From: an uncultured Gimesia sp.
Lineage (GTDB): Bacteria; Planctomycetota; Planctomycetia; Planctomycetales; Planctomycetaceae
Direction: 5' to 3'
Assembly (NCBI RefSeq): GCF_937910335.1
Contig: NZ_CALEMX010000483.1
Location: 1 to 35,757, forward strand
DNA length: 35,757 nt
The position numbers and the translations under genes were made by a program. Positions 5,079-25,342 of the stretch are shown here, piece by piece (position 1 is the stretch's first letter; every line of letters begins with the position of its first letter). The notes under the pieces are model-generated. The model saw only the letters and a program-made list of their open reading frames with translations. It was not told the origin of the DNA and searched no databases.

Positions 5079-5983
5079 GAAATCGTCCTTTCTGCAGATG
5101 TTTGTTGAACTTCCATCAAAGGCGCTGAATAGTGAGAATGCCAGCTGTCAAAATTCAGAAGTCGCACATTTGTGAGTATCTGAATACCAATCACTGTCAA
5201 CAACAGCAACCCCCCGGTCCAGATCGTTAACTGCGCGATATGTTTTTGATTCGGTTGCTTCGTTCTGAGTATAAAAATCACGCTGATCATCATGACTGCC
5301 CAGACGATTTCATATACAATAATCACCGGGTCATAGAACGAAATCGACTGAGCGCCTTTACGAACATAAACTCCCAATCCAATCCCAATTCCCATTCCCA
5401 CGGTTAAAAGTGGTGCAGAAATCATGAGCGCCCAGCGATTCAAACGTGACAGTTTCGCCAGACTGGGAAGATGGAAACCTTCAGAAAAGTTCTGTTTCTT
5501 TTTCAGTCGACGATGTTGAACCAGATACATTGCGCTGACCACAAAACAGAGCCCGATCCCCACACCACCCAGTACCAGCAATGAAGCGTGCAGTAATGCC
5601 CACGAGCGAATTGCTGGTTCCACCAATGCATTCGTGACATTATCCACAAAATAAGACGAAATCACCAAAACCAGAACCAGTGGAAACAGAAACAAACCAA
5701 TCGAAAGCTGTTCATCAATCAGATTGATGAACAGAAAAATGGAAACAAGTAACCACGAAAAGACGATCAGCCAGTCATGTGATGAACTCAACAAGGGAGG
5801 AAGTTGTGTTTTCTGGGCTTGATTAAAGATGTAAGCGGTTTGTGCCACCAGCCCTGCAAAGGAAAAGAGGAAAATGAGAGGCCGAATGAACTTGTTTTTT
5901 TTTCGCAGAAATCTGGCCAGCTCTAACCCGAAGGCCACGAGATAACTGGCCATAAAACAGAAAACTGTCACATTCGATAACAT
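5075..5983 (-). CDS. HemX/CcsA-like cytochrome c assembly membrane protein
   Basis: This is a polytopic membrane protein of about 302 residues with roughly eight hydrophobic segments, and it overlaps hemA by four bases. The fold pattern, a conserved-looking histidine in WALLHASLLVLGGVGIG, and the position just upstream of hemA match the HemX/CcsA (cytochrome c assembly) superfamily. Such proteins handle heme at the membrane or modulate HemA. The reading frame is open further upstream to a GTG at 6034, which would add 17 residues. I prefer the ATG at 5983 because it opens directly into the first membrane helix (NVTVFCFMASYLVAFG); neither start has a strong ribosome-binding site. Whether it acts on heme delivery or on HemA stability cannot be told from sequence. 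Confidence 0.85.
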   Translation of the reverse strand: MLSNVTVFCFMASYLVAFGLELARFLRKKNKFIRPLIFLFSFAGLVAQTAYIFNQAQKTQLPPLLSSSHDWLIVFSWLLVSIFLFINLIDEQLSIGLFLFPLVLVLVISSYFVDNVTNALVEPAIRSWALLHASLLVLGGVGIGLCFVVSAMYLVQHRRLKKKQNFSEGFHLPSLAKLSRLNRWALMISAPLLTVGMGIGIGLGVYVRKGAQSISFYDPVIIVYEIVWAVMMISVIFILRTKQPNQKHIAQLTIWTGGLLLLTVIGIQILTNVRLLNFDSWHSHYSAPLMEVQQTSAERTIS

Positions 5984-6090
5984 GTTTGAGACTTCATAAA
6001 AACGACAGAATAAAAGTGGTAGGCTCTCTGTCACTGAGGAGAATCAGAACGACTCTCTATTATAGGGCTGTTCAGCAAGTGAAGGGCAAG

Positions 6091-24160: not shown

Positions 24161-25342
24161 ATGGCCAAGAAAAAAGCGGTTAATAAACGCACTTCAGCAA
24201 GCACCTCGAAGTCGCCAGCCAAAAAAACAGTCGCAGACAAGAAACCAGTCGTCCGAAAAAGCAGCAAAAGCAACCCTGCCTCGCTTCAGTCTGAACTAAA
24301 GAAACTTGACCGCGAAATTGTAAAAATGGTCAATAAACGCTGTGCAATGACCGTCAAGCAGATTAAATCGGATCCCGAACCGCGCAAAGCAATGTTCGAC
24401 CCGAAATCAGACGAAGAACTAAGAGAAAACATAGAAAAAATCAACGCATCTGGCACCATGACCAACAATGCGATTCGAGGGGTATTCAGACAGATTCTGA
24501 GTTCTGCCCGTCGACAGATTCACCCCCAACGTGTTGCCTATCTCGGACCAGCATATAGTTACACACATCTGGCTGCCCTCGAACGATTTGGGGATCAGGC
24601 AGATATGGTCCCTGTTAACACCATTGGATCCGTCTTCGAAGAAGTGAATCGAGGTAATACGGAATTTGGTGTCGTCCCGATCGAAAACAGTACCGATGGA
24701 CGCGTCGTAGATACACTCGATATGTTTACCAGACTTCCACTCCGAATTTGTGGTGAAGTCCTTATCGCCGTCCATCATAATCTGCTCGCACGCTGTGAAC
24801 GGAGTGAAATCACTGAAATCTACAGTAAACCGCAGGCGCTCTCCCAGTGTCGTGAATGGCTCTCACGAAATATGCCACAGGCACACTTACATGAAGTCAC
24901 CAGTACTTCAACGGCAGCGCAATTAGCGGCGACAAAACCAGGCGCAGCAGCGGTCGCCAGCCATCAGGCTTCGGTTGAATATGATTTGCAAATTATTGTG
25001 GAAGGCATTGAAGATAACGTCAATAACGTGACTCGCTTTGCCGTTATTGGAGAAGAAGTCTGTGATCCAACGGGCTCAGATCGTACTGCCATTTTAGTAC
25101 AAATTAAACATTCCGCTGGATCACTGGCAGATACACTGCAAATCTTCAAGAAAAACAAAGTGAATCTGACCTGGATTGAATCGTTCCCCTTAAGAGGCGA
25201 CGAACCAGGTTACCTCTTTTTTATTGACTTCGAGGGACATATTCAGGAACCCCAAATCAAACGCACCATCAGCGAACTGGAAAAACGAGTCGTTCGACTG
25301 GAGGCAATGGGCTCCTATCCTCGTAGTGGTATCATGGAATAA
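24161..25342 (+). CDS. pheA: P-protein: chorismate mutase-like domain, prephenate dehydratase, ACT domain
   Basis: The enzyme makes phenylpyruvate, the phenylalanine precursor. Residues 1-40 are a Lys/Ala/Ser-rich tail without a known role. Residues 41-120 align with AroQ chorismate mutase: R60 and K69 fit catalytic positions, but Gln43 replaces the usual N-terminal Arg, and Ser83-Asp84 in FDPKSDEE replaces the usual Arg-Glu pair. Prephenate dehydratase follows, with [34 protein letters not shown] and the catalytic threonine in [10 protein letters not shown]. The C-terminal ACT domain has ESFP where ESRP is typical, and AGSLADTL in the other ligand motif. Dehydratase activity looks intact; mutase activity and phenylalanine feedback are doubtful. 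It appears to be a single-gene unit after a long leader. Confidence 0.93.

Follow-up and report, generated by a model that had tools for sequence, protein, structure and literature searches.

Which enzyme makes prephenate in a bacterium whose fused chorismate mutase-prephenate dehydratase appears to have lost nearly all catalytic residues of its mutase half, and why would that half be kept? The question is raised by a pheA-type P-protein gene (24161..25342, + strand; 393 aa; open reading frame and Pfam matches) in the window, the whole 35,757-nucleotide stretch of DNA from an uncultured Gimesia sp. analysed here. The protein begins with a Lys/Ser/Ala-rich tail of 40 residues (24161..24280, +; 11 of 40 are Lys) that is predicted to be disordered, with pLDDT below 50 for residues 1–28 (AF2). 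Many members of the window's family share its MAK-type start. There follow a relic chorismate mutase (AroQ) domain (residues 39–120; 24275..24520, +; AF2, VIA), a prephenate dehydratase domain (residues 124–300; 24530..25060, +; Pfam PDT, E 9.5e-61) and an ACT domain (residues 305–389; 25073..25327, +; Pfam, E 0.00037, with a score of 20.6 bits that lies under its cut-off of 27). The dehydratase part looks intact: it reaches the NCBIfam cut-off for prephenate dehydratase (PRK11898; 251.4 bits against 219, residues 124–388), and N289 and T291-R292-F293 are invariant in a 108-protein alignment (A1). The mutase part barely passes the CM_2 (PF01817) cut-off (27.2 bits against 27; 30.6 bits for the same locus in the genome search) and misses that of the P-protein mutase domain (TIGR01807, CM_P2; 17 bits against 69.55), as the whole protein misses that of the bifunctional P-protein (PRK10622; 151.6 bits against 577). 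No RNA leader near the gene was matched by Rfam at gathering scores in the window.

The original prediction held that the N-terminal catalytic arginine of AroQ mutases is Gln43 in this protein and that the Arg-Glu pair is Ser83-Asp84, with R60 and K69 remaining. All five residues stand at these positions in the 393-aa translation, and both replacements recur in concordant MAFFT and pairwise alignments to E. coli PheA (MG1655), in which Gln43 (24287..24289, +) takes the place of R11 and Ser83-Asp84 (24407..24412, +) that of R51-E52. K69 proved not to be a kept active-site residue; it aligns with K37, and the position of catalytic K39 is held by Asp71 (24371..24373, +), so that the loss extends to the catalytic lysine. 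With Ile120 (24518..24520, +) in place of Q88, five of the six residues of the AroQ catalytic set (R11, R28, K39, R51, E52 and Q88) are changed, and the residue loss is larger than first described. The sole survivor is Arg60 (24338..24340, +), the counterpart of R28. Arg60 and Asp50 (24308..24310, +; counterpart of D18) are the only residues of the domain that are invariant among the 108 proteins of A1, an alignment that omits the most eroded P-proteins, those of genomes G023 and G030.

The relic domain is nonetheless predicted to keep the three-helix AroQ fold. AF2 models of the whole P-protein (mean pLDDT 90.0; block values of 89–97 across residues 41–120) and of the domain alone (pLDDT 92.4) both show this arrangement, with helices at residues 39–70, 81–97 and 102–120. 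In the VIA comparison the domain aligned with 5go2 (Z 10.2, 83 residues aligned, rmsd 1.9) and 1ecm_A (Z 9.3, 84 aligned, rmsd 2.0), and the 19 best rows, spanning Z 10.2 to 6.1, were chorismate mutases, mutase domains fused to DAHPS, or PchB; among them is 1ybz, titled conserved hypothetical there and chorismate mutase in the profile search. The next row was unrelated, at Z 4.3, as were the chains from there down. Foldseek with the domain alone gave no match at E<=0.001 (best 0.012, to 5go2, TM-score 0.70); with the whole model, dehydratases and unrelated folds stood among the top 50 rows, after which the domain was folded alone. Because helical bundles can reach such Z scores through arrangement alone, the case for an AroQ fold depends mainly on the drop in Z before the unrelated rows and on the sequence profile of the relic, which matched 2d8d at 1.7e-16 and 1ecm at 8.1e-8; both AF2 alignments contained intact homologues, which may have influenced the predicted fold. 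The profile was gapless to five structures among the matches listed, and the pairwise alignment was gapless from A40.

A likely source of prephenate is present elsewhere in the same genome (96% complete, 635 contigs), as had been proposed. Searches for the two mutase families CM_1 and CM_2 recovered one AroH (CM_1, PF07736; E 3.0e-46, 159.9 bits) at C267:13931-14281, on a different contig from the window, and no second AroQ (CM_2) at E<=0.001 or E<=0.1. The aroH reading frame is open and ends in a stop codon, and its product matches solved AroH enzymes across the 117 residues compared, resembling an ordinary member of the family (1com, 4nwo, 1ode) with no difference seen. All seven active-site residues checked are present (R7, F57, R63, C75, E78, R90 and Y108; we take F57, C75, E78 and Y108 to be active-site positions), and all seven recur in 30 of 30 AroH sequences of the class, a set thinned from 94 genomes with AroH. 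R7, R63 and R90 are named as AroH active-site residues in the account of PMC5526877. TyrA (312 aa) consists of PDH_N and PDH_C and has no mutase-family match. Since AroH is present together with a mutase-free TyrA, it can supply the prephenate needed for phenylalanine as well as for tyrosine.

Presence of AroH and decay of the P-protein mutase domain go together across the class. AroH was found in 41 of 59 relatives; P-proteins of the AroH-less families f2, f3, f4 and f6 score 66–94 bits against CM_2, and those of the AroH-carrying families f1, f5 and f7 score 55.2 bits or less or have no match. A class sample of 158 genomes contains AroH in 75 and a P-protein in 158. These P-proteins and those of 19 further relatives with a match (177 in all) were aligned jointly and scored for the six residues. 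Every one of the 92 that co-occur with AroH keeps three or fewer (2 keep none, 53 one, 35 two and 2 three), a count that includes G030, whose match shares only 39% identity, sits at the end of a very long branch (5.07) and may not be an orthologue. Without AroH, 82 of 85 keep five or six (8 and 74, respectively). A set of 157 proteins gave the same picture (87/87 with AroH, 67/70 without). Two genomes of 76 and 79% completeness (G006, G026) have AroH and no P-protein match and stand outside every P-protein tally.

The three exceptions, G251, G300 and G032, keep three, two and one residues, respectively, and show no AroH even at E<=10. G300 and G251 (loci L166 and L204; 97% complete) carry a decayed domain with neither AroH nor a second AroQ above the cut-off; the assemblies may lack a mutase gene, or these genomes may encode a mutase of another kind. 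G032 (88% complete, 1,200 contigs) has a second CM_2 match of 59.4 bits (L049, G032:C647). By eye, the frame of that match looks like an exported lipoprotein, and the matching segment bears an arginine, a lysine and DPERE.

At the level of single residues, 67 intact planctomycete P-proteins show no variation at R11, R28, K39, R51 and E52. In 77 decayed ones, a set that also omits G023, R28 and D18 are retained in 100%, E52 in 31%, R11 in 10%, R51 in 5%, K39 in 3%, G36 in 1% and Q88 in 0%. These conservation counts omit 11 of 16 genus genomes, G030 and 20 P-proteins that are present in the 177-protein tally. The intact and decayed sets were divided by their score on the same residues, and the contrast is partly by construction; the coincidence of this division with AroH presence is not. 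The pattern indicates residue loss beyond ordinary variation. A second group of residues, in helix 3, behaves differently: R78, S82 and R85 (numbered as in E. coli) each persist in 84% of the 77 relics; the intact planctomycete domains all have R78 and R85, and 98% have S82. The E. coli residues at these positions are Q, V and E, which points to a contact inside these planctomycete proteins rather than to catalysis.

Few evolutionary events underlie the count of 177 proteins, so the tally is a strong pattern rather than many independent trials. On a dehydratase-plus-ACT tree of 94 rows (omitting 11 genus rows, G030, G023, G042 and G303, with f1–f3 thinned to roughly half), the decayed state takes four changes, three of them forced by supported branches, which speaks against a single origin. 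A tree of 146 rows, omitting 11 genus rows, takes five changes for the decayed state and eight for AroH; its five independent pairs that differ in AroH on supported branches comprise two concordant, no opposite and three without a difference, and a sign test over these five is not significant (p 0.5). In the dehydratase tree the decayed proteins of the window's family are the sister of a large intact group, and the intact families f62, f64, f66 and f67, all five members of which have Glu at position 88, are placed among other decayed families. The repeated decayed state may have arisen through decay in parallel lineages or through differential loss from an ancestor that possessed both enzymes. 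In the AroH tree, a branch with support 99/97 sets the AroH of the window's family, which joins actinobacterial AroH, apart from the AroH of the remaining families that carry it. An AU test did not reject a single AroH clade (p 0.256), and two separate acquisitions of AroH are a suggestion only.

Beyond the class the either-or pattern of AroH and AroQ is not general. Among 148 genomes sampled from the phylum, AroH occurs in 21, of which 16 belong to the class; in four of the remaining five CM_2 is unmatched at E<=0.001, and the fifth (G067) has both. Neither CM_1 nor CM_2 is matched at E<=0.001 in 47 of the 148 genomes, and these other planctomycete lineages may have an unrecognised mutase or lack the pathway. 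Dehydratases beyond the class vary in their partner domain: those of the AroH-bearing genomes G139 and G149 have a DAHP synthase domain instead of a mutase domain, and that of G115 begins at the dehydratase part. The fused genes of G149 (L274:436-2310, +) and G139 (L276:1483-3357, −), from another planctomycete family, encode a DAHP synthase with a ferredoxin-like domain joined to prephenate dehydratase, and in G139 an AroH match (C122:4729-5076) adjoins that of the fused gene (5094-6059) on the same strand. A 680-aa protein of G067 (L278:571-2613, −) combines AroQ (69.9 bits), prephenate dehydratase and DAHP synthase, in a genome that additionally carries AroH and a second dehydratase.

Within the genus Gimesia the relic domain is under purifying selection. 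Median dN/dS is 0.048 for the relic, about five times below the 0.238 of the disordered tail of the same protein; the ACT value is 0.023 and that of the dehydratase 0.004. Of 120 pairs, 64, 95, 61 and 63, respectively, were usable, and high dS makes these ratios rough. Across relatives, a series of erosion can be recognised by eye, from full domains of three helices through G227, with a shortened loop and helix 2, to G272 (L272), with helix 1 only, and to G023 and G266 (loci L105 and L269), which have no recognisable helix 1 and are without R28. The shortest part ahead of the dehydratase measures 79 residues among 87 P-proteins of AroH-bearing genomes; that of G272, which lies outside this set, is shorter. 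Because the domain is trimmed in G272, G023, G266 and G227, any scaffold that it provides would be dispensable in some relatives.

We consider it likely that AroH displaced the mutase and that the N-terminal AroQ domain remains as a scaffold that is catalytically dead or nearly so. Chorismate would be converted to prephenate by the free-standing, unrelated AroH encoded elsewhere in the genome, the P-protein would act as a prephenate dehydratase only, presumably under ACT control, and TyrA without a mutase domain would carry prephenate on to tyrosine. We infer that the relic itself has no mutase activity. Its AroQ-shaped domain would most likely serve as a packing or dimerisation scaffold for the dehydratase, holding the old dimeric arrangement, a role to which the predicted fold and the low dN/dS point indirectly. 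The account of the Bacillus subtilis domain in PMC5526877 lists Arg27, the equivalent of Arg28, among the residues that form hydrogen bonds across the dimer; a similar contact would explain the survival of Arg60 alone. If the domain were functionless and merely eroding, quicker in certain lineages, the graded series from full domains through G227 and G272 to G023 and G266 would be expected, and we regard this as an unlikely though serious alternative. It sits poorly with the roughly fivefold lower dN/dS of the relic relative to the tail, with the invariance of D50 and R60 in A1 (G023 and G030 omitted) and with the at least 79 residues that remain ahead of the dehydratase in the 87 P-proteins of AroH-bearing genomes, G272 outside that set being shorter.

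Besides a structural role, the original prediction had allowed for an inactive domain that binds another ligand. Loss of five of six residues supports inactivity, but the conserved polar ligand pocket is gone as well, which makes it fairly improbable that the domain regulates the dehydratase by sensing a metabolite such as chorismate or prephenate, in the manner of some mutase-like domains of DAHP synthases. Such regulation has precedent: in Listeria the mutase-like domain fused to DAHP synthase is described as a regulator with chorismate or prephenate as its ligand, and its Bacillus counterpart is presumed to act likewise (PMC5526877); DAHPS-fused domains are among the best structural matches of the relic, Arg60 is invariant in A1, and the helix-3 residues are widely kept. 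The same account, however, describes the polar active-site residues as conserved in all CM_2 proteins compared, the regulatory ones included (PMC5526877), unlike R11, K39, R51 and Q88 in the relics. Slightly less probable still is that the relic was repurposed after the takeover by AroH, in parallel in at least two lineages with separate AroH, and that a remade surface docks a partner or senses a ligand; that surface may comprise the near-invariant Asp50 and Arg60 and the helix-3 R-S-R, with AroH handing prephenate to the dehydratase as one example. Residual catalysis is harder to accommodate. The AroQ-delta mutase of M. tuberculosis (MtCM), which has no Gln88 counterpart and an Arg in place of Lys39, is reported to be boosted about 100-fold by DAHP synthase (PMC7762937; PMC9910054), and a compromised mutase activated by a partner protein in this manner is conceivable here but very improbable: the MtCM active-site residues R18', R35, R46, R58 and E59, as given in PMC7762937, correspond in the profile register to Q43, R60, D71, S83 and D84, of which one is kept, and AroH renders such activity unnecessary. 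Least credible is an active mutase with a site rebuilt from other arginines or lysines. The domain would not lack material, with 18 Arg/Lys between residues 36 and 122, yet the alignments leave no shift in register (pairwise from A40; profile to the five structures among the matches listed), and the only basic residues that reach 80% in relics are R28, R78 and R85, which intact domains have too.

These results place a dead scaffold domain beside AroH as the preferred reading, and they bear on annotation and on the fate of fused enzymes. The name "bifunctional chorismate mutase-prephenate dehydratase" would very likely misdescribe this gene, and likewise its counterparts in several sister families as well as in the window's own family. 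The class offers a natural series for half of a fused enzyme after a takeover (intact, catalytically blank but folded, trimmed and nearly gone), in which AroH presence marks the switch, and the reason for keeping dead domains is directly testable in bacteria, here in a genus that is not known to include pathogens.

Among known systems, the AroQ-alpha chorismate mutase-prephenate dehydratase PheA of E. coli has the same domain order and the same predicted fold of the first domain, in contrast to the five of six mutase active-site residues lost in the Gimesia P-protein. The mutase-like domains of DAHP synthases in Bacillus, Geobacillus and Listeria (5gmu, 5j6f, 3nvt) likewise place an AroQ fold beside another enzyme of the pathway, and B. 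subtilis is reported to have AroH besides its DAHPS-fused domain (PMC5526877). According to the same source those domains keep a polar pocket, whereas the Gimesia relic keeps R28 only. Literature searched by titles and the beginnings of abstracts, with subscription journals and preprints outside its scope, yielded no description of the planctomycete case. The nearest precedent that we found appears to be Aro1 of Candida albicans, in which, on the account of PMC9074039, the DHQase domain is inactive through active-site substitutions and an unrelated type II DHQase, Dqd1, performs the step; the tested Candida species without the free enzyme keep the DHQase domain active (PMC9074039). As described there, the dead domain mediates homodimer formation and its deletion left viability unaffected (PMC9074039), which, like the trimmed domains of some relatives, counts against a scaffold being needed everywhere. 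Both cases unite a fused protein of the aromatic pathway that carries a dead domain, a non-homologous free enzyme and a matching co-distribution. Candida Aro1 is fungal, concerns another step and other folds, and its activity was assayed (PMC9074039); the P-protein is bacterial, concerns chorismate mutase and is known from sequence alone. Here, the pattern extends over much of a bacterial class and includes a graded series of erosion, and the Gimesia P-protein would represent the bacterial chorismate-mutase counterpart of Candida Aro1.
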